IMG/VR virus record: IMGVR_UViG_3300017917_002193
Location: 1-63,882 of that record
From: a virus
Reading direction: 5' to 3' (one strand)
Length of the DNA: 63,882 nucleotides
Each line of letters opens with the position of its first letter. Positions within the stretch are counted from its first letter, which is position 1. Shown here one piece after another: positions 1,645 to 59,855 of the stretch. Under the pieces are notes generated by a model, which was not told the DNA's origin, searched no databases, and worked only from the letters and a program-made list of their open reading frames with translations. The position numbers were made by a program, and so were the translations under genes.

Positions 1645-2424
1645 ATGGATCACTACAAAACTTTAGGCGTTGACCGCAGTGCCAGTGCTGATGATATCAA
1701 GCAAGCATATCGCCGCCTAGCACGTGAGCATCATCCAGATCGTGGAGGAGACACTGCACGATTCCAAGAAATACAAGCGGCATACGATACACTGAGCAAT
1801 CCACAAAAACGTGCAGAGTATGATCGCCCTACATCAAACAGCCAAGCATTTAACTTTCAAGACTTTGGTAACATGCATGACATATTTGGTCAGATGTTTG
1901 GCGGAGGCTTCCATCCTTTTGGACAAAACCCTCGTCGTAGTCATGTACGTCTGTCATTATGGATCAGCTTGCATGATGTAGCAGTGGGCGGAACTCGTGT
2001 GGTAAATTTGGGTACTCAATCTGGCACATCAACTGTGAGCATTGACATTCCCTTGGGTATCAACGACGGCGACAATGTTCAATATGCCGGCATTGGCCCA
2101 GGTGGCACTGATTTGGTTGTGCAATTCCGTGTGCATCCGCATCAGTTCTGGGAACGACACGGGCTCAATTTGGTGATAGATCAAAAAATTCCACTGTGGG
2201 ATTTGTTGCTGGGCGGCAAACTAAAACTCACCAGCATTACTAATACCGAACTTGAAGCCACAATACCGGCTGGAACACAACCAGGCACAATGTTGAGATT
2301 GCGTAGCCAAGGATTACGAGATCGCAACGGCCAACAAGGCGATGTGTTTGTCAGAGTCAGCACATATTTGCCAACCAACATTGCTCCTGAAATATTGGAT
2401 GCCATTAGAAAACATCGCACTTGA
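1645..2424 (+). CDS. DnaJ/CbpA-like co-chaperone
   Basis: 259 aa. The N-terminal J domain (about 1-62) has the diagnostic HPD tripeptide at residues 30-32, needed to stimulate Hsp70 ATPase. A Phe/Gly-rich linker follows (about 68-98), then a two-lobed C-terminal substrate-binding region. No CxxCxGxG zinc repeats are present, so it is a class B (CbpA-type) J protein. Phage DnaJ proteins would use host DnaK. It is followed 52 bases later by the ClpA-like gene, suggesting a shared protein-remodelling role. AGGA lies 12 bases before the ATG, so initiation may be weak or nearly leaderless. Confidence 0.88.
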   Translation: MDHYKTLGVDRSASADDIKQAYRRLAREHHPDRGGDTARFQEIQAAYDTLSNPQKRAEYDRPTSNSQAFNFQDFGNMHDIFGQMFGGGFHPFGQNPRRSHVRLSLWISLHDVAVGGTRVVNLGTQSGTSTVSIDIPLGINDGDNVQYAGIGPGGTDLVVQFRVHPHQFWERHGLNLVIDQKIPLWDLLLGGKLKLTSITNTELEATIPAGTQPGTMLRLRSQGLRDRNGQQGDVFVRVSTYLPTNIAPEILDAIRKHRT

Positions 2425-2476: not shown

Positions 2477-4753
2477 ATGCAAAATAATCCCGAAATCGAA
2501 GCCATTGTAGAAGATTCTGTGCGCATTGCTCGCAATCACCAGCACGAATATGTGTTGACCGAACACTTGCTATTGGCATTGATCCGGCATGCACCATTTA
2601 GAAAAGTGTTAGAAAAATTTGGTGTAGCAGTAGATGTTATTGACACCGAAGTTGATGCATATCTTCGTAGTCTAATTAATCTGGTCAAACCCGACAAAGA
2701 CCTACAGCCAAGAAAAACACAAGCCTTGGAACGTTTGTTTAACCGCGCCAATGTGCAAGTGATGTTTACTGGACGTCGTAGCATGAGCACTGTGGATCTG
2801 TATCTCTCAATCATGAGTGAAACACACAGCCATGCTCAATACTTCATGCTCAAGCATGGGGTCAAGAAACAAGAGTTTGTGGAGTTTTGGCAAAAGAATT
2901 ACAACCACAGTGATGCCAAGCTCACCAACAACCAGGCCAATGAAATTCTAGAAGAGTACTGCACCAATTTGACTGCAATGGCCAAGGCAAATCGTCTTGA
3001 GCCCATGATTGGTCGATCGTCTGAACTAGAAGAAATGATTGCTGTGCTGGCTCGTCGCTTCAAAGCCAACGTGCTCATGGTGGGCGACCCTGGTGTGGGT
3101 AAAACACACATTGTAGACGGCCTAGCACAGGAAATCAACGCAGGCCGTGTGCCAGAGTTTATTAAAGGTCACGAAGTCTGGGGCTTAGAAATTGGTAGCT
3201 TGCTGGCTGGATCTAAGTACCGCGGTGAGTTTGAAGAAAAGTTCAAGGCTGTGATCGCCGCACTGGAAACCAAAAAGAACGCTATCCTATTCATTGACGA
3301 AGCGCACACCATGCGTGGCGCTGGATCAGGTAGCAACAGTAGCCTAGACTTTGCTAACATGCTCAAGCCAGCTATCACACGTGGTAATCTCAAAGTTATT
3401 GCTTCAACTACTTGGGAAGAATATTACGAAAGCTTTGAAAAGGATCGTGCGTTGATGCGCCGCTTTTATCGCTTGAGTGTTGACGAACCAGATGCGTCAA
3501 CCACTGAACAGATTTTGATTGGCTTGAGCCCACGTTTGGAGAAATTCCACAATGTGCTGATTGACACTGAAGCAATGACAGCGGCTGTGGAGTATGCAAA
3601 CCGTTACATTCATGATCGCAAAAATCCTGACAAGAGCATTGACTTGCTGGATGCGGCTTGTGCTCGTGAACGTGTTAAAGATCTTGGCAATGTCACCATC
3701 ACACGTGAAATGATTCAAGCACAAGTAAGTCGTGTTGCTGGTGTGCCCACAGACAAACTGCAAAACGAACGTAGCACCAAGATTGTTGAACTAGAAAGCA
3801 ACGTCAAGCAAAAGCTGTATGGTCAAGAGTCAGCCGTGGACACAGTGCTGGAACGGGTGTACATCAGCTTTGCTGGCATTGGCAACGAAAAACGTCCAAT
3901 GAGTAGCTTCTTGTTCTTGGGACCAACTGGTACAGGTAAAACAGAACTGGCCAAGTTGTTGGCAGAAAACCTGGATATGAAACTGTTGCGTTATGACATG
4001 AGTGAATATCAAGAGCGCCACACTATCTCAAGTTTGATTGGTGCACCTCCTGGCTATGTAGGCTTTGAGGATGGCAACGTAGGGGGCGGCAAACTGATCT
4101 CAGACATCAGCAAGAATCCTTTTGCTATTTTGTTATTTGATGAGATTGAAAAGGCTCACCCCGATGTCACCAATATCATGTTACAAATGTTGGACGAAGG
4201 ACATATCTCTTCGTCCAATGGCAAACGTGTGGATGTCAAAAACTGTATCATTATCATGACATCTAACTTGGGCGCACGTGACAATGAAAATAACAATATT
4301 GGCTTTGGATCTAGCTTGGAGAAAACTGGAAGCGAAGACAAAGCACTGAAAGACTTCTTCCGCCCTGAACTGCGCAACCGTATTGATGCTATTGTAAAGT
4401 TCAAGAAGCTGGACATGTTGGCCATCAAGAAGATTGTTGTGAAGTTTGTTGACGAATTACGCACCAGTTTGGCGTCAAAGAATATTCGACTCAATCTCAG
4501 CGAGCCAGTGATTGAATATCTTGCTGACAAAGGATATGACAGCAAAATGGGCGCACGTCCGCTGAGTCGCAAGATTGACGAGCTTATCCGTGTGCCGTTG
4601 AGTAAGAAGATCCTGTTTGATCAGTTGCGTGATTGTACAATTATTGTTAGCCTTGTAGACGACAAGATTGAGTTTGTAACAGAAACTCTACTGTTGCCCG
4701 GTATAAACAATGAAGGAATTATTTGTGTTGACCCAGTACAAAATACAGACTAA
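2477..4753 (+). CDS. ClpA-like AAA+ unfoldase
   Basis: 758 aa, the usual length and layout of ClpA. A Clp N-domain (about 1-145) leads into two AAA+ modules. Walker A sites are GDPGVGKT (203-210) and GPTGTGKT (482-489); Walker B sites are AILFIDEAH (269-277) and AILLFDEIEKAHPD (550-563). The ClpB-type coiled-coil middle domain is absent. A loop in the second module carries Ile608-Gly609-Phe610, the IGF/L tripeptide with which ClpA and ClpX dock on ClpP. No clpP gene is in this window, so host ClpP is the likely partner. Substrate is unknown; the phage tmRNA tag ending in ALAA is an attractive one (inference). Confidence 0.92.
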   Translation: MQNNPEIEAIVEDSVRIARNHQHEYVLTEHLLLALIRHAPFRKVLEKFGVAVDVIDTEVDAYLRSLINLVKPDKDLQPRKTQALERLFNRANVQVMFTGRRSMSTVDLYLSIMSETHSHAQYFMLKHGVKKQEFVEFWQKNYNHSDAKLTNNQANEILEEYCTNLTAMAKANRLEPMIGRSSELEEMIAVLARRFKANVLMVGDPGVGKTHIVDGLAQEINAGRVPEFIKGHEVWGLEIGSLLAGSKYRGEFEEKFKAVIAALETKKNAILFIDEAHTMRGAGSGSNSSLDFANMLKPAITRGNLKVIASTTWEEYYESFEKDRALMRRFYRLSVDEPDASTTEQILIGLSPRLEKFHNVLIDTEAMTAAVEYANRYIHDRKNPDKSIDLLDAACARERVKDLGNVTITREMIQAQVSRVAGVPTDKLQNERSTKIVELESNVKQKLYGQESAVDTVLERVYISFAGIGNEKRPMSSFLFLGPTGTGKTELAKLLAENLDMKLLRYDMSEYQERHTISSLIGAPPGYVGFEDGNVGGGKLISDISKNPFAILLFDEIEKAHPDVTNIMLQMLDEGHISSSNGKRVDVKNCIIIMTSNLGARDNENNNIGFGSSLEKTGSEDKALKDFFRPELRNRIDAIVKFKKLDMLAIKKIVVKFVDELRTSLASKNIRLNLSEPVIEYLADKGYDSKMGARPLSRKIDELIRVPLSKKILFDQLRDCTIIVSLVDDKIEFVTETLLLPGINNEGIICVDPVQNTD

Positions 4754-5459
4754 TCAGCGGGACCGACTGTTCTTTGATCGGTTTGAATACAGTTTTCGTT
4801 TCAAACAGCGTGAAGTGTATGCCATTCGTGGCTTGCCAGACACTGCTAAGTTGATGAAATTTATTGAAAACCGTAGAGCATGGATGCGTAGTGTAACCTA
4901 TCAACGCAATCAAGCTGACGAACACTTTACACTGGAAAGCATTGAGAGTCTATTGGCCACCAAGGATTTGCTGTCTAACCACCCCACTGAATTTAAAATG
5001 ACTGTGAGCGGTGACTGGGCGCTGATTTATACCAATGACCTTAACTTGGTAGATAGGATTTCTAGACTGCCACAGGTGTGGTGTGACCGTACAGTAATCA
5101 AGGCCGAAGTAGCTCGAGCACGTGACACCGTGGTAATCAAAGAGCCACAGTATCGTTATCGTACATATTTTAGAGAACGAAAGATGCGGCCCGAAGTCAA
5201 ACTGCAATTGCTGGATTGGATTAAATCACAGCATTATCAAGACGTTGACAATGTGCGAGCCAGCGGAGCCTTGCAAGGATGGTTAAAAAATGAGTATGCA
5301 TCTTGGCGCAAAGACTGGTGTATGCGACACTATTACATTGAGCACAATGACACTCGTTACGAAACCATGATTGGCATGGTAGCCCCAGGATTTGTACGAA
5401 AAACAGTGCGAATTATCAGCCCAGAGGAAAATCTACTAGAGCAAACTGCTGATAAATAA
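4710..5459 (+). CDS. Conserved-looking protein of unknown function, coupled to clpA
   Basis: 249 aa, basic and aromatic-rich. The start lies 44 bases inside the end of the ClpA-like gene, implying translational coupling. No catalytic motif is recognised. The C-terminal third is rich in Trp, Arg and Tyr, which would suit nucleic-acid or virion binding. I cannot assign a function. An adaptor for the unfoldase and a structural protein are both possible. Confidence 0.75.
   Translation: MKELFVLTQYKIQTNQRDRLFFDRFEYSFRFKQREVYAIRGLPDTAKLMKFIENRRAWMRSVTYQRNQADEHFTLESIESLLATKDLLSNHPTEFKMTVSGDWALIYTNDLNLVDRISRLPQVWCDRTVIKAEVARARDTVVIKEPQYRYRTYFRERKMRPEVKLQLLDWIKSQHYQDVDNVRASGALQGWLKNEYASWRKDWCMRHYYIEHNDTRYETMIGMVAPGFVRKTVRIISPEENLLEQTADK
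5453..5458 (+). promoter_or_regulatory. T4-like late promoter core (TAAATA)
   Basis: TAAATA, within GATAAATAAT, ends 7 bases before the ATG at 5466. T4 late promoters use TATAAATA read by a phage sigma and the sliding clamp. At this distance the mRNA would be nearly leaderless. Confidence 0.5.
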
Positions 5460-6019: not shown

Positions 6020-6763
6020 ATGAAGCAAATTGTTATTATGCCCGGCGGCTTTCACCCATTTCATGCAGGACACTATGCCCTGTATAATTCTGCACGTCAA
6101 GCCTTTCCCAATGCCGAAGTATTTGTGGCAGCCACAAACGACACATCGGCACGACCATTCCCATTTGCAGTGAAAGAAAAACTGGCCAAACTAGCCGGTG
6201 TTGATGCTGGACATTTTGTACAAGTAAAGAGCCCATTTCAAGCCAAGGAAATCACTGGTAAATTTGATCCCGAAACAGATCAGTTGATCTTTGTGCGCAG
6301 TGAAAAAGACGCAGACAAGCCACCACAACCTGGCGGTGTTAAAAAAGACGGTTCTCCTAGCTATTTGCAACCCTACAAAGGACAAAAAGAACTTGAACCC
6401 TTTGTTCGTCATGCTTACATGGCATACTTGCCCACAGTGGAGTTTGGTCCTGGCATGACATCGGCAACAGAAATACGCACTGCATGGCCTCGATTAAACG
6501 ACAAGCGCAAACAAGCTCTTGTCATGAGTTTGTATCCCATTACACAAAGCAAACCAGCCTTGGCACAAAACGTTGTCAAACTGTTGGACACTGCTATCAT
6601 TGGTGAACAGCCCATGGATGAAAACCAAGGCTGGGCCGCAACCTACAACGAAAGCGATGACTACATCGAAGAGAAGTGGTCAGCAAAATACAAGCGTTCA
6701 ATCAACTGCAATAATCCCAAAGGCTTTAGCCAAAAAGCCCACTGCGCTGGTCGTAAAAAATAA
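6020..6763 (+). CDS. HxGH nucleotidyltransferase-fold protein with Cys-containing tail
   Basis: 247 aa. The start MKQIVIMPGGFHPFHAGH has the HxGH signature of the cytidylyltransferase/NMNAT-like superfamily (HAGH, 15-18). The second signature of that fold is less clear; GPGMTSATEIR (about 148-158) sits where the ISSTxxR loop is expected. The last 25 residues (INCNNPKGFSQKAHCAGRKK) form a basic module with two cysteines, a type seen at the ends of phage virion proteins. The substrate is unknown. It may be packaged, given its neighbours. Confidence 0.7.
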   Translation: MKQIVIMPGGFHPFHAGHYALYNSARQAFPNAEVFVAATNDTSARPFPFAVKEKLAKLAGVDAGHFVQVKSPFQAKEITGKFDPETDQLIFVRSEKDADKPPQPGGVKKDGSPSYLQPYKGQKELEPFVRHAYMAYLPTVEFGPGMTSATEIRTAWPRLNDKRKQALVMSLYPITQSKPALAQNVVKLLDTAIIGEQPMDENQGWAATYNESDDYIEEKWSAKYKRSINCNNPKGFSQKAHCAGRKK

Positions 6764-19263: not shown

Positions 19264-20126
19264 TGTTCTACTATATTTTTATAGTGATCAAAATCTTTCA
19301 CAGTTAACGTATCCCAATCAAACTGCATACTGAGTCTCAAGTCTGGCACAGCATCGCACACTGCATTGTACTTTGTGGGATCCAGCAATGCCAGTTTGTC
19401 AAGGCTGTCATATTCAAAACGTCGTTGTTCGTGATAGTCAACATTGCCACATACCACTGCCCAGTCACCCAGCAATTCAGGTTCAGCAAACCATTTTATA
19501 AGTTCGCCATTGCCCCAGGGCGGAATAGTCGGCATCCCGGGCACAGCTTCTATAGTAGCGTCAAGCCAGTGCTTGCCAGGCCAACGTTGTGCCATGTGTT
19601 GCTTATATGCGTTCCAGTCTGCTTTGCGCACTGGTACAAACTCTGTAACAAAGCAATGCGGGGTTGGTCTAGGAATACCAGTTATAGATTCAAACATTCG
19701 TTCATAACTGCCTTGCGTGGTATTCATCAAGCTCATTAAATTTAGACGCCCGTCTTTGATGGGACTGTACGGAGCAATAAGGAATGTATCGGGATCTTGA
19801 ATCATCATTACTTCACGATCCAGCATGTCAATATAGCTAAGTTTGATAGCTTGCTGGCGTAGCCAGTACGTGCGATAATCGCCCTCAAATACCCAATTGT
19901 TGACTTGGGGGTAGCGTTCGTAAATTACACTGTCGTCCATGTAGCTAAACGTGCTGGTGTCAATACCATACTTGCGGAACGCTTGATCAACTCGAGATTT
20001 GTCTAAGTTACGTGTGCATGCTACAATGGTTTCTGTTACCCCTTGTAGCATGTGATCCCACTGCAAACTAAAACACGCATGCGGCATGCGGTATTCTGCT
20101 AAAAATAAAATTCTTGTTACACTCAT
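19245..20126 (-). CDS. Glycosyltransferase-like protein (DUF6492-type)
   Basis: 293 aa. The central MMIQDPDTFLIAP is a likely DxD-like site and the whole resembles the 16011 product in motif order. It lies between the radical SAM gene and the GT10-like gene with short overlaps (4 and 19 bases), so the three are probably made together. Function beyond sugar transfer is unknown. Confidence 0.55.
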   Translation of the reverse strand: MSVTRILFLAEYRMPHACFSLQWDHMLQGVTETIVACTRNLDKSRVDQAFRKYGIDTSTFSYMDDSVIYERYPQVNNWVFEGDYRTYWLRQQAIKLSYIDMLDREVMMIQDPDTFLIAPYSPIKDGRLNLMSLMNTTQGSYERMFESITGIPRPTPHCFVTEFVPVRKADWNAYKQHMAQRWPGKHWLDATIEAVPGMPTIPPWGNGELIKWFAEPELLGDWAVVCGNVDYHEQRRFEYDSLDKLALLDPTKYNAVCDAVPDLRLSMQFDWDTLTVKDFDHYKNIVEQCLKQN

Positions 20127-21175
20127 TCTCTACCACCACAACTGTTAACGCATTGATAAAGTCTACCATCAGCAATGCTGGCCCGTTTCCAGGTTTCTTC
20201 TATCTTTTCAAACCAATCCAAGCAGTGTGCTAAATCGTATTGCAAGGCATTGTTTTCATGAACTAGTCCTTGTAACTGCTCATTGCCAGGATGATGCATA
20301 GTCTGTGGGTAGTAACCTAAAAAACAACAAGGATAAATTGAGCCGTCGGCAGCAATGTAGATTTCTTCCTGACGTTTGTGCTCACAAACCAATCTTAGTT
20401 CAGGTTCATCTTTTGCAATCTTTATAGTTTTGTGATTAAACCAAGTTTTATGATTTTCCAATAGTGCATGCACATCCGGAACAATGTGAGGTGGAGCAGG
20501 ATCATGCCCTATGCGATGGCTGAATTCGCCTGTTCGCCGAAACACTGGGCCTGTGTCTCTACCATCGTAGATGTTTTCAAACCGCACAAACCCCAACTGA
20601 GACGCTAGATCTCTGCAAGCTTTTTCTTGATACCGATTGTGATCAAATGGTATAAAACGCCAAACAGCATGTCCGCCAGCACTTATAAATGCAGTAGCAT
20701 TTTCAATTACAGCATGCCAGTTGGTGTCCTGCCTATACAAACTGTGGGTGTCGGCTAGCCCATCCAACGCAAAACCAATTGTAACTCCAGGTAATGCTAG
20801 CTTCTTCCACCAGGCCTGACCCCGCATGCTGCCATTTGTAGTAATGTTCACAGCTACACCGTGGCTCACCAGATATTCCACTATTTCTACTCCGTCGTGT
20901 GCAAGAGCAAAGTCTCCAAGATTGCCATTGAAATTAACACCATAAAATTTGTTAGTCTTGTGAGGAAATCCATCCTGTGGTGGTGGGGGAGGTTTGAGTT
21001 GATCAAGGAAACTGGGCTGAAAAATGTGTTTGAACTGCTCCAAACTTAGTTCAGTCACAGGATACCCTGAATTGTATTCAAGCCCACGATAATTTCTAGG
21101 GCACATGGGACAGCGAGCATTGCATCTAGTGGTGAGTTCCACATGTACTCGACGTATATCTGCTAGTTTTAACAT
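20123..21175 (-). CDS. Radical SAM protein with a C-terminal Cys cluster (SPASM-like)
   Basis: 350 aa. RCNARCPMC places Cys18, Cys22 and Cys25 in the canonical CX3CX2C that binds the SAM-cleaving [4Fe-4S] cluster. Later motifs ADGSIYPCCFLGYYP (about 275-290) and CVNSCGG at the C-terminus look like auxiliary cluster ligands of a SPASM or twitch domain. Such enzymes modify peptides, sugars or tRNAs. It is first in the reverse operon, behind a TATAAATA motif. Substrate unknown. Confidence 0.85.
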   Translation of the reverse strand: MLKLADIRRVHVELTTRCNARCPMCPRNYRGLEYNSGYPVTELSLEQFKHIFQPSFLDQLKPPPPPQDGFPHKTNKFYGVNFNGNLGDFALAHDGVEIVEYLVSHGVAVNITTNGSMRGQAWWKKLALPGVTIGFALDGLADTHSLYRQDTNWHAVIENATAFISAGGHAVWRFIPFDHNRYQEKACRDLASQLGFVRFENIYDGRDTGPVFRRTGEFSHRIGHDPAPPHIVPDVHALLENHKTWFNHKTIKIAKDEPELRLVCEHKRQEEIYIAADGSIYPCCFLGYYPQTMHHPGNEQLQGLVHENNALQYDLAHCLDWFEKIEETWKRASIADGRLYQCVNSCGGRE

Positions 21176-40001: not shown

Positions 40002-42008
40002 ATGACTTATAAAATTGCTTTTGTTCAGCCCAATTTTCAGCAAGGACCTAGAGAGTTCAATGCCTATTACTTGCCTTATTCAGCGGGTGTGGTATGGAGC
40101 TACAGCCTTGCTGACCCTAAAATTCGCGAGCGGTTTGAAGCCACTCACTGGATTTGGCGACGAGACGTATTGGAGCCTTTGGCCCAAGAACTGGCTCAAT
40201 TGGACATTGTGACATTTAGCACTTACGTGTGGAATCATCGATACAACTATGCTCTGGCTCAACGTATCAAAGAAATCAACCCCCAAGTATTGACTGTGTT
40301 TGGCGGGCCTGAACCTGCTATTACTGATCCTGATCTGTTTCGCAAAGAACCTTTCATGGATCTAGTGATCTGCTACGAGGGCGAAATCACATTCAAACGA
40401 GTGTTAGAGCATTATGAAACTCGAGACTGGGAAACCATTCCTGGCCTGCTGATCAACCGAGATGGCGAAGCAGTAAAGACTCCCGACGCTGAACGTATTG
40501 AAAGCTTGGATCAAGTTCCTAGTCCCTACTTGTCAGGTATATTTGATAAGTTAATAGAAGAGAATCCCGACATCACTTGGCAAGGCACACTGGAAACCAA
40601 TCGTGGTTGCCCGTTTGCTTGTACATTCTGTGACTGGGGCAGTCTAACCTATAACAAAGTTAAAAAGTTTGAACTTACCCGTGTGTTCCATGAGTTGGAA
40701 TGGATGGCCAAACGTAACTTTGACTGGATTTCAATCACTGATGCAAACTTTGGCATGTTCCCCGAACGTGACGGCATGATTGCAGACAAGATCATTGAGA
40801 TGCAAGAAAAGTATGGTTCGCCTAGAACGTTCAGTGTGGCCTGGGCCAAGAACCAAAAGAAAGAAGTTATTGACATTGTCAAGAAACTGTTGGACGCACG
40901 TGGGTTCAACCAAGGCTTAACACTCAGTGTACAGAGCTTGGATTTAGATGTGCTGGAAAACATTCGTCGCAAGAATATGGAAATGAACAAACTCAACGAA
41001 GTGTTTGAGCTTTGTGATCAACGCAACATTCCGGCCTACACTGAATTAATTCTTGGTTTGCCAGGCGAAACACTGGAAACATGGAAAAAGAACTTCTATG
41101 CACTGTATGATCTAAATCAGCACACTGGTATCACTGTGTTCCAAGCACAATTGCTGGAAAATGCCGAAATGAATTTGCTACAGAAAAAGCTGTTCAAGAT
41201 CACCAGTCAACCTGTAACAGACTACTTTGCAGGCAGCTACAGTGTTGAACACATTGAAGAAAGTATTGATGTCATCACTGGCACCAAGGATATGCCTACA
41301 CCCGTGATGCTGGACGCACAAATCTTCTCTTGGTTCCAAACTACATTCCATATCAATGGTTTCGCTACACTGGTAGCCAGATTTATAAACAAACATCTTG
41401 GCGTTAGTTATGCAGACTACTATCAGGAATTGTTTGATTACGCTATGACTCATCCATGGTTAAAAAAAGAAGCCGACGAAGCTAGACAATATTTTTCAAA
41501 CTGGATGCTAACTGGCAAAATCAATCACCCCAAGATTGGTGTAGAAATACACGGCTGGAATATTATTCACCGCACTAGCATGAACATGCATGCAGAAAAT
41601 CGTGTAGACGAGCTGTATGACTTTTTGGAATCGTTCTTGTTGCGTTACAACTTGTCAGAGGACTTGTTGCAAAGCTTGATGCAACTGCAAAGAAACTACT
41701 ACATTAGATACGATCAAAGAAATCAATATCCAATGAATCTAGTAATAGATTATAACATTTGGGATTTCCTAAGTTTTAATCAACCCCTACAAAAAACCCC
41801 TACAACTTACCAACTTGATTTTCCCGAGGATAAAACCATGAGTCTTAACCGATTCCTTGAACTGTTTTATTTTGCACGCCGCAGAAACTTTGGCAAGGCC
41901 ACTGTAGATCGTGTCGGCCAACAAGACACAAAAACAGCACGTCGAGGGCAAGGTGCTGCCAAAGCACAAGGATCATTCTCAGTCAAGAAAAAACAATTGG
42001 CGGCCTAA
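40002..42008 (+). CDS. B12-binding radical SAM protein
   Basis: 668 aa. The N-terminal cobalamin-like domain (about 1-150, with VFGGPEPAIT) precedes the radical SAM barrel with CPFACTFC (Cys203, 207, 210). SITDANFGMFPERDG, TLSVQSLDLDVLENIRRKN and TELILGLPGETLETW are typical of this class. A long C-terminal helical region ends in a basic tail. Such enzymes methylate or rearrange unactivated carbons; the substrate could be a modified base, lipid or peptide. Confidence 0.9.
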   Translation: MTYKIAFVQPNFQQGPREFNAYYLPYSAGVVWSYSLADPKIRERFEATHWIWRRDVLEPLAQELAQLDIVTFSTYVWNHRYNYALAQRIKEINPQVLTVFGGPEPAITDPDLFRKEPFMDLVICYEGEITFKRVLEHYETRDWETIPGLLINRDGEAVKTPDAERIESLDQVPSPYLSGIFDKLIEENPDITWQGTLETNRGCPFACTFCDWGSLTYNKVKKFELTRVFHELEWMAKRNFDWISITDANFGMFPERDGMIADKIIEMQEKYGSPRTFSVAWAKNQKKEVIDIVKKLLDARGFNQGLTLSVQSLDLDVLENIRRKNMEMNKLNEVFELCDQRNIPAYTELILGLPGETLETWKKNFYALYDLNQHTGITVFQAQLLENAEMNLLQKKLFKITSQPVTDYFAGSYSVEHIEESIDVITGTKDMPTPVMLDAQIFSWFQTTFHINGFATLVARFINKHLGVSYADYYQELFDYAMTHPWLKKEADEARQYFSNWMLTGKINHPKIGVEIHGWNIIHRTSMNMHAENRVDELYDFLESFLLRYNLSEDLLQSLMQLQRNYYIRYDQRNQYPMNLVIDYNIWDFLSFNQPLQKTPTTYQLDFPEDKTMSLNRFLELFYFARRRNFGKATVDRVGQQDTKTARRGQGAAKAQGSFSVKKKQLAA

Positions 42009-42629: not shown

Positions 42630-43478
42630 ATGGATTTTAAAGTCAGCGAAATATTTTATTCAGCACAAGGCGAAGGACGCTATGTAGGCGTGCCCAGTGT
42701 GTTTTTGCGCATGTTTGGATGCAACTTCCAATGCGCAGGGTTTGGGTGTAAGCCTGGTGAAAAAACCACAGAACCAGATGAGATTGCCAAAAGCGTTCAT
42801 CTCTACAAAACATTTGAAGAGCTTCCACTTGTGGACACTGGTTGCGACAGCTATGCATCGTGGCATCCAGCGTTCAAACATCTAAGCCCAACATATACTG
42901 CACCACAACTGGCTGACAAGATTCAAAGCTTGTTGCCTAATGGTCAGTGGATGCAAAGCTCAAACGGTAACCCGGCACACCTTGTGATCACAGGTGGCGA
43001 GCCATTGCTGGCGTGGCAAAAGATCTATCCAGAACTACTGGACATCTTGCACGAACGTGGCTTGCGACATATTACTTTTGAAACCAACGGCACTCAACCT
43101 TTGCACAGAGAGTTTCAACAGTATTTGCAAGACTGGTTTGGTGAGATTACATTCAGTGTAAGCCCCAAACTAAGTGTGTCTGGTGAAACTTGGGAAGACG
43201 CCATCAAGCCTGATGTTGTATGGAATTACGAATTGTACGGCGTAACGTATTTGAAGTTTGTAGTTGAACGACTAGAAGATTTTGAGGAGCTTGATCGTGC
43301 AGTGGCAGCATATCGCGAGCGTGGTTTTGCTGGCCCAGTATTTGTGATGCCAGTGGGCGGTGTAGTGTCAGTGTACGACGGCAATAGAATCCATGTAGCA
43401 GACGAAGCATTGAAACGTGGATACTGGTATAGCCCTAGATTGCACGTTGATCTTTGGGGAAATGGATGGGGGAAATAA
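42630..43478 (+). CDS. queE: 7-carboxy-7-deazaguanine synthase-like radical SAM enzyme (QueE)
   Basis: 282 aa. FYSAQGEGRYVGVPSVFLR and the cluster motif GCNFQCAGFGC (Cys31, 35, 40; CX3CX4C rather than CX3CX2C) mark QueE. LVITGGEPLL and ITFETNGTQPL are SAM and substrate motifs, and FSVSPKLSVSGE is typical of QueE. A long insertion (about 41-100) separates the cluster from the core. It converts 6-carboxy-tetrahydropterin to 7-carboxy-7-deazaguanine. Confidence 0.93.
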   Translation: MDFKVSEIFYSAQGEGRYVGVPSVFLRMFGCNFQCAGFGCKPGEKTTEPDEIAKSVHLYKTFEELPLVDTGCDSYASWHPAFKHLSPTYTAPQLADKIQSLLPNGQWMQSSNGNPAHLVITGGEPLLAWQKIYPELLDILHERGLRHITFETNGTQPLHREFQQYLQDWFGEITFSVSPKLSVSGETWEDAIKPDVVWNYELYGVTYLKFVVERLEDFEELDRAVAAYRERGFAGPVFVMPVGGVVSVYDGNRIHVADEALKRGYWYSPRLHVDLWGNGWGK

Positions 43479-58751: not shown

Positions 58752-59855
58752 ATGTCCAATAAATTTTGCCGCTTTTTAAGCAACGGATACAAAATCAATG
58801 TTGATTGGCAAGGCCTGACATGGAGTCCTTGTTGCTTTTACAGCAAAAAAGTGCCGCTGTTAGACCAATCGCAGTTTGAACAAGCACTAACTTACACATC
58901 TAGTGCTACAGATTGGTTGCCCGAATGCCATCAATGCCGACTCATGGAACTCAGCGGCGCACCCGGGCTAAGTCCAAGATTGTCAAGCTTTCAAAAAATA
59001 CACACTGACATTGATGATGGGGTGTGCGGCGCATTAGAACTCAACTTGGACCTAGCTTGCAATGCGGCATGCTTGAGCTGTGGGCCTTATGCCAGCACTA
59101 CTTGGCAAAAGTATGAGATCAAACATCAACTCACTGATCAGCGTCGTGTAAAAAATTACGCCAACAACTACTTACAACAACTGTTGAACACTGTACCGCT
59201 GGACTCAGTACAGAATTTGTTTTTGCTGGGCGGTGAACCACTGTACAGCCCAACTAACTTGACATTACTCAAGCATTTGCATCAGGTACACCCGGCGCTG
59301 GACCAGGTAACATTACAATACCAAACCAATGCTAGTATCATCCCCAGCGCCGAAGTAATTGAACTTTGGAAAGGTTTCAAGTCTGTGGTCATCAGCATGA
59401 GTTTAGACGGCGTAGGAGAACGATTCAATTATCTACGCTGGCCGTTGAAGTGGCACAGAGTTGAACGAACTGTTGATTTCTTGTTGAACAATACCGATGT
59501 GCTGTTCAATGTCAATGCCACCATTAGCCCACTAAACGTGTGGTACTTTGATGAAATTGAGCAGTGGGCCATTAGTGCCATACCGCGTGACAGATTTGTC
59601 AAACGACTGCATTGGCCAGTTCGTCCCAATCGTTGCATGGCTCCCATGGACTTAAACATGACCACATTGGCATTGCGCCAAGCTGTGATAGAAAAATACG
59701 GTAGTGAACACACCTTGGCCAAGGTGTTCAGTAATCTTGAGTTGGTAAAAAATTATCAACCCATGTTTGAACACATTGAACGCCATGATCAAATACGCAG
59801 ACTGAGCTGGCGCAAAACTTTTCCCGAGGCAGTGAAATACTATGATATCATATGA
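58752..59855 (+). CDS. Radical SAM protein with twitch-like Cys regions
   Basis: 367 aa. ACNAACLSCG places Cys103, 107 and 110 in CX3CX2C. Upstream Cys pairs (SPCCFY at 26-29; PECHQC at 57-62) may hold an auxiliary cluster. LFLLGGEPLYSPTN is the SAM-binding GGE motif. It overlaps the PP-loop gene by 14 bases, suggesting a joint pathway, perhaps peptide or sugar modification. Confidence 0.87.
   Translation: MSNKFCRFLSNGYKINVDWQGLTWSPCCFYSKKVPLLDQSQFEQALTYTSSATDWLPECHQCRLMELSGAPGLSPRLSSFQKIHTDIDDGVCGALELNLDLACNAACLSCGPYASTTWQKYEIKHQLTDQRRVKNYANNYLQQLLNTVPLDSVQNLFLLGGEPLYSPTNLTLLKHLHQVHPALDQVTLQYQTNASIIPSAEVIELWKGFKSVVISMSLDGVGERFNYLRWPLKWHRVERTVDFLLNNTDVLFNVNATISPLNVWYFDEIEQWAISAIPRDRFVKRLHWPVRPNRCMAPMDLNMTTLALRQAVIEKYGSEHTLAKVFSNLELVKNYQPMFEHIERHDQIRRLSWRKTFPEAVKYYDII

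Follow-up and report, generated by a model that had tools for sequence, protein, structure and literature searches.

The question raised by this locus is which ClpP a phage-encoded ClpA serves, that of the bacterial host or one of the phage's own. The DNA analyzed here, called the window below, is a viral stretch of 63,882 nucleotides (IMG/VR record IMGVR_UViG_3300017917_002193) that carries a clpA-like gene near its first end. A preliminary description, made from the sequence alone, had regarded the encoded protein, with no ClpP gene nearby, as built to redirect host ClpP, perhaps so as to reshape the host proteome or clear away defence proteins. We compared the gene and its possible partners with those of related viral contigs and of named phages.

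Identity of the ClpA-like protein

The features of the locus are listed in Table 1. The window protein has the same length as E. coli ClpA and aligns end to end with the E. coli ClpA chain 1ksf (E 8e-177). Pfam matches to Clp_N, AAA, AAA_lid_9, AAA_2 and ClpB_D2-small were obtained, and the match to the NCBIfam ClpA model TIGR02639 was effectively full-length, spanning residues 6-721. The score of this match was 807.1 bits, which is below the equivalog cut-off of the model (993.15 bits). We therefore call the protein ClpA-like, and file it under phrog_4871, a phage family of ClpA-like proteins (795 bits), rather than as a ClpA equivalog.

Table 1. Positions of the clpA-like gene, its functional elements and its neighbours in the window.
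Feature	Position	Strand	Basis or remark
J-domain co-chaperone, DnaJ and DnaJ_C domains, HPD at residues 30-32	1645..2424	+	52 nt upstream of clpA
clpA-like gene, 758 aa, phrog_4871	2477..4753	+	ORF, ATG start; Pfam, NCBIfam and PHROGs matches
Clp N-domain, about residues 1-143	2477..2905	+	Clp_N match 16-63; E. coli ClpA N-domain alignment; model helices 5-141
D1 Walker A GDPGVGKT, residues 203-210	3083..3106	+	sequence motif, 81-sequence alignment
D2 Walker A GPTGTGKT, residues 482-489	3920..3943	+	sequence motif, 81-sequence alignment
D2 pore loop GYVG, residues 526-529	4052..4063	+	sequence motif, 81-sequence alignment
ClpP-docking tripeptide Ile608-Gly609-Phe610	4298..4306	+	alignment to E. 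coli ClpA; invariant 81/81
ORF without family match	4710..5459	+	overlaps clpA 3' end by 44 nt

The architecture is that of ClpA, that is, an N-domain, two AAA+ modules and a D2-small domain without an M-domain. We take the N-domain to be the part where ClpS docks in E. coli. Conservation was examined in 81 sequences, namely the window and 80 IMG/VR loci that were the best 80 of at least 596 relatives, so that the counts below cover these loci and not the more distant ones. In this set, both Walker A motifs, the GYVG loop and the Walker B acidic pairs were nearly invariant. The earlier reading of the protein as a full ClpA-like unfoldase without a ClpB middle domain is thus confirmed by the Pfam, TIGR02639 and 1ksf matches and by the absence of an insertion at the place of that domain. 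Since the coiled-coil middle domain is absent and the ClpB model matches only as two separate stretches, identity as a ClpB disaggregase is ruled out.

The ClpP-docking tripeptide

The consensus for ClpP docking in the D2 loop is (L/I/V)-G-(F/L), according to a passage of PMC8745299, and the tripeptide in the D2 loop of the window protein agrees with it. Residues 608-610 align with IGL at positions 617-619 of E. coli ClpA, and Ile, Gly and Phe are invariant there in all 81 sequences. Across the loop (residues 600-627), only 5 of the 28 positions are invariant in the window and the best 80 of the at least 596 relatives, and three of the five are these residues, which rules out an occurrence by chance. 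The preliminary description had placed the tripeptide at the position of the ClpP-binding loop, and the alignment and the invariance bear this out. The results support the view that the window ClpA keeps an intact, strongly conserved ClpP-docking tripeptide.

Burial of the tripeptide had been named beforehand as evidence that would count against docking. In the AlphaFold model of the window ClpA (mean pLDDT 77), the loop at residues 600-621 was disordered, with pLDDT below 50, and the tripeptide had no regular structure and was not part of a buried element. The pTM of the model was 0.42, which makes its domain placement meaningless, and local features alone were used. The low pLDDT of the loop is compatible with flexible exposure, although it does not prove docking.

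Partner genes in related contigs and named phages

No ClpP, ClpS or ClpX gene was found within the 63,882-base window. The remark that no ClpP gene lies nearby therefore holds for the window, but it reflects the contig edge: the window is a fragment with only 2.4 kb upstream of clpA, so that the absence of ClpP means little, and the ClpP genes of relatives lie beyond this reach.

A search for ClpP (PF00574) was made in 33 contigs of the 80 loci (best 80 of at least 596), mostly the longer ones. ClpP-family genes were present in 18 of the 33, mostly as a pair in which ClpP1 is canonical and ClpP2 divergent. When at least 73 kb lay upstream of clpA, a ClpP-family gene was found in every contig (17/17), and with a shorter upstream region in 1 of 16. 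ClpP1 was present in 16 of those 17 contigs, and the remaining one, G029, had ClpP2 only. The ClpP genes of the relatives lie 40-75 kb upstream of clpA, except in G021, where ClpP1 sits 20.7 kb downstream. In the closest relative, G001, whose ClpA is 89% identical to that of the window, the partner genes lie upstream of clpA on the same strand, with ClpP1 at 53.6 kb, ClpP2 at 55.9 kb, ClpS at 75.1 kb and ClpX at 78.1 kb. The DNA-polymerase region of the window (22.8-30.0 kb) matches 117.5-122.4 kb of G001, about 23 kb downstream of its clpA on the same strand, a spacing close to that of the window.

ClpS was found in 15 of 34 records; where 84.8 kb or more lay upstream of clpA, no contig lacked it (13/13). 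ClpX was found in 13 of the 16 related contigs searched, and it retains IGF in the sequences inspected. For ClpS we take Asn34, Asp35, Met40 and His66 to form the N-degron pocket, and Glu79 and Lys84 to contact ClpA. Of 18 loci aligned, 17 yielded a ClpS row (that of RaK2 yielded none), and all six residues were kept in the nine window-clade sequences aligned, while Asp36 and Pro39 vary. N-degron delivery by the phage ClpS is therefore plausible. A complete phage N-degron pathway was dismissed, because the leucyl/phenylalanyl-transferase (PF03588) was found in none of 30 records; the phage would thus depend on host enzymes or on other N-degrons.

The partner genes were also found in named phages. 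Thirteen records were chosen among the 60 ClpA matches listed, out of 167 in the phage collection, and six were added later. Among the first 13, ClpP was present in 12 and ClpS likewise in 12 at E 1e-3 (11 above the cut-off). ClpX was found in Phosso, Atu_ph07 and PA5oct, and below the cut-off in SCTP-2. All six further phages gave a ClpP-family match, although those of VnaP and qdvp001 were weak and partial (21.5 and 29.7 bits). The record LR756501 has ClpA without ClpP or ClpS, and its tripeptide is the non-canonical QGM. Phage ClpA thus need not be accompanied by a protease. Running against this trend, VnaP and qdvp001 have canonical-looking loops (GIGL and GVGF) and yet no clear ClpP.

These findings bear on the idea that the phage ClpA docks host ClpP, displaces host ClpX or ClpA and so redirects degradation. 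The tripeptide suits bacterial ClpP clefts, whose pocket is the same as that of phage ClpP1 (see below), and the window has no ClpP of its own. However, the short upstream region deprives this absence of weight, and nearly all named ClpA phages tested own a ClpP-family gene. In addition, the degenerate tripeptide of phages of the RaK2 type appears unsuited to host ClpP, and yet these phages have retained their own ClpP, whose pocket is altered. The premise that the phage has no ClpP is not supported by its relatives, which encode a canonical ClpP, usually with ClpP2, ClpS and ClpX, in a set about 40-102 kb upstream of clpA. We consider that such hijacking of host ClpP is improbable as the explanation of the protein.

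Phage ClpP1 and ClpP2

The catalytic Ser-His-Asp, Leu114 and Arg192 are retained in all 14 window-clade ClpP1 sequences. The docking-pocket positions other than Arg192 are those that we take to form the pocket; published support for them was not found in the literature checked. In E. coli ClpP, the substitution R192K abolishes ClpX binding, as stated in a passage of PMC7112951. Among 80 bacterial ClpPs, Leu114 was present in 75 and Arg192 in 64. By sequence, the docking pocket is common to phage ClpP1 and bacterial ClpP, and because of this host ClpP could be shared in the window clade. For the same reason, the sequence cannot show which ClpP the window ClpA prefers, a point that counts against a phage-owned protease.

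In the ClpP tree, 18 phage ClpP1 sequences group together (98/95) next to alphaproteobacterial ClpP (89/96), which argues for inheritance within phages. The 18 comprise 14 window-clade sequences and those of Phosso, Atu_ph07, SCTP-2 and PA5oct, the last two being of unsure placement owing to long branches.

ClpP2 differs from ClpP1 in its pocket. Its triad (S93, H118, D169) was invariant in the 24 sequences aligned, so that an inactive ClpR-type subunit is ruled out. The ClpP2 model folds as ClpP (pLDDT 81), with M. tuberculosis ClpP1P2 as the top structural match. In the 11 window-clade sequences aligned, most residues of the IGF pocket are missing: Tyr62 is replaced by Met or Ser and Leu114 by Thr, while Leu48 is kept. 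A mixed ClpP1-ClpP2 barrel is only a suggestion. Divergent ClpP of the ClpP2 type occurs widely among viral contigs, with 193 stretches found (L277-L356 among them).

Covariation of the ClpA tripeptide and the ClpP pocket

After four further scans and a search of 38 long contigs for ClpP, which was found in 25 of them, ClpA could be paired with the best ClpP of the same record in 53 phage records. The tripeptide was canonical in 43 of them (33 IGF, 5 LGF, 4 VGF and 1 IGY). Their ClpPs had Arg192 in 39, Arg or Lys at 192 in 41 and Leu114 in 41 of the 43; the exceptions were PA5oct (Ser114, Lys192), XaC1 (Thr114, Lys192), SCTP-2 (Gly192) and G060 (Asn192). In the ten non-canonical phages, which are of the RaK2 type (two each of MNM, IGV and LGM, and one each of IGG, VGM, IGM and MGM), neither Arg or Lys at 192 nor Leu114 was found in any ClpP. 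The Fisher p value of this association was 3e-9, a value that ignores shared ancestry.

The ten non-canonical ClpAs form nearly one clade in the ClpA tree. XaC1 (VGF, Lys192) is nested there with strong support, having Vibrio phage 2.275.O on one side and the RaK2 group on the other, so that at least two changes of tripeptide class are required. As the tree forces only two such changes, few independent events stand behind the covariation. Moreover, the RaK2-type ClpPs have diverged further as whole proteins, with 33-36% identity to that of E. coli, and part of the change in their pocket may therefore be general drift. With these limits, the covariation suggests co-evolving, host-insulated ClpA-ClpP interfaces in RaK2-type phages. 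On a finer scale, pocket position 90 of ClpP is Leu rather than Ile in four phages with the LGF tripeptide (ClpA of L357, L359, L360 and L361; ClpP of G034, G036, G037 and G038), and G068, also with LGF, has Val at this position.

Neighbourhood of clpA and a possible role in assembly

In 79 of the 80 loci (best 80 of at least 596 relatives), the gene immediately preceding clpA encodes a homologue of the J-protein; the remaining locus, L033, has only 137 nt upstream of clpA. The gap between the two genes is 29-97 nt in most of these loci and about 450 nt in eight, and HPD was present in 78 of the 79 J-protein matches aligned. The dnaJ-clpA order also occurs in Atu_ph07 and PA5oct, and in Phosso with a peptide deformylase gene in between (L126 2454-2972). 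This gene places an N-terminus-processing enzyme beside the unfoldase of a phage that also encodes ClpS. No dnaJ was seen beside clpA in the annotated RaK2-type neighbourhoods examined.

Downstream, the ORF overlapping the 3' end of clpA is a fast-evolving but constant neighbour, present in 72 of the 80 best loci with 22-47% identity. A nucleotidyltransferase-like ORF (window 6020-6763, a weak CTP_transf_like match) follows clpA in 73 of the same 80 loci. Four radical-SAM-type ORFs were also seen in the window, at 20123-21175 (minus strand), 40002-42008, 42630-43478 (under the Pfam cut-off) and 58752-59855; one of the four has a B12-binding domain. This number seems high for a phage.

The pairing of dnaJ and clpA could mean that ClpA acts with the J-protein as a ClpP-independent chaperone or translocase in virion assembly. 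Translocase and assembly functions are proposed in a section of a jumbo-phage review (PMC7824862), the ClpA record of fENko-Kae01 is annotated as identified by LC-MS/MS, and clpA of RaK2-type phages is located among structural genes. However, a ClpA working independently of a protease would need no invariant IGF, and LR756501, the sole named record without both ClpP and ClpS, also lacks a canonical tripeptide. We think that this explanation is distinctly unlikely, a little more so than hijacking of host ClpP.

That phage ClpP is a head-maturation protease unrelated to ClpA, as its PHROGs label ('head maturation protease') and a single ClpP peptide in the structural-protein mass spectrometry of CBB (per a part of PMC5259590) would have it, is very improbable: of 21 records examined, 14 have a separate S77 prohead protease that clears the cut-off, 11 of the 12 named phages being among them, so that ClpP is not needed for head maturation; ClpP1 of G001 passes the ClpP subfamily model NF001368 (314 vs 249 bits) and falls below the ClpP-related head-maturation model (104.6 vs 120); and the ClpP pocket covaries with the ClpA tripeptide. 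The same ClpP1 narrowly misses the cut-off of TIGR00493 (301 vs 308.6). The S77 protease was found in three of nine window-clade records, all of them fragments, and not in the window.

A probable phage-owned Clp protease

Taken together, these results make it probable that the window gene supplies the unfoldase, ClpA, to a Clp protease owned by the phage. Because ClpP, ClpS and ClpX are absent from the window, we infer the partners of this exact phage from its relatives. Beside the shared docking pocket, the missed TIGR02639 cut-off, LR756501 without ClpP and ClpS, and the weak partial ClpP matches of VnaP and qdvp001 count against a phage-owned protease.

The protease would act as follows. 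The window phage would carry ClpP1, usually ClpP2, ClpS and ClpX past the edge of the fragment. Six ClpA subunits would unfold a substrate and thread it through the GYVG pore loops into the ClpP barrel, with the IGF of ClpA docked in the clefts of ClpP1. ClpS would bring N-degron substrates to ClpA, and the J-protein, as operon partner, would recruit host DnaK for the preparation or triage of substrates. Host ClpP may perhaps be used too.

A wider reading, which we offer tentatively and hold somewhat short of likely, is that large phages have a private Clp protease in which the lock and key of ClpA and ClpP co-evolve and can drift from the fit to the host. In RaK2-type phages both sides would be altered (LGM, MNM, IGV, IGG and similar tripeptides; Leu114 to Gly and Arg192 to an acidic or neutral residue), giving an insulated protease closed to host ClpX and ClpA and independent of host ClpP. 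The window clade would still be host-compatible, the pocketless ClpP2 forming the blind ring in a barrel shared with ClpP1.

Comparison with known systems

The window protein resembles E. coli ClpA in its full architecture, length and docking-loop position, and differs in having IGF for IGL and in falling under the equivalog cut-off. Unlike the ClpAP/ClpS system of E. coli, that of the phages has its partner genes tens of kb away, a J-protein gene upstream of clpA and, in relatives, a second divergent ClpP.

A part of PMC6102473 lists ClpA (gp292), DnaJ (gp293), ClpP (gp676), ClpS (gp708) and ClpX (gp2) in the Agrobacterium phage Atu_ph07, and suggests roles in virion assembly or host survival. 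Atu_ph07 and the Sinorhizobium phage Phosso are like the window clade in having ClpA with IGF, their own ClpP, ClpS and ClpX, and a J-protein gene adjacent to clpA or one gene apart, although their ClpA is only 40% identical to that of the window and branches elsewhere in the ClpA tree. The RaK2-type phages RaK2, GAP32, CBB, Munch and Sharanji all have a phage ClpA with its own ClpP, and a diverged ClpS was found in the four examined for it (RaK2, GAP32, CBB and Munch). They differ in the degenerate tripeptide, the altered ClpP pocket, the lack of a dnaJ adjacent to clpA in annotated neighbourhoods, and the absence of ClpX in the same four. Moraphages, in a portion of PMC12619734, are large aquatic phages in which ClpA is common and DnaJ occurs in some. 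The modulation of host ClpCP by SPO1-type phages, as outlined in an excerpt of PMC6873191, is likewise an action of a phage on the Clp protease; that factor is a small adaptor-like protein, whereas the present case is an entire unfoldase that comes with a peptidase of its own.

The window gene is thus of a known kind, and the covariation of the interface may be the new part. Titles and abstract openings of the open-access literature gave no evident mention of ClpA-ClpP interface covariation in phages. A search of open-access full text, subscription papers being outside its scope, gave no match for phage-encoded ClpP or Clp as a named topic.

Earlier readings treated these proteins separately. 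In the jumbo-phage review, as far as its relevant section goes (PMC7824862), ClpS is an adaptor to host ClpAP, ClpA a translocase and ClpP possibly host-directed, and in annotation ClpP is labelled a head protease. Our comparison suggests instead that ClpA, ClpP and ClpS travel together as a single machine with matched interfaces. This holds for abundant phages known from metagenomes as well as for jumbo phages in culture. Since the recorded host of one of the latter, Sharanji, is E. coli K-12 MG1655, the question of which ClpP a phage ClpA uses is directly testable in a laboratory strain.
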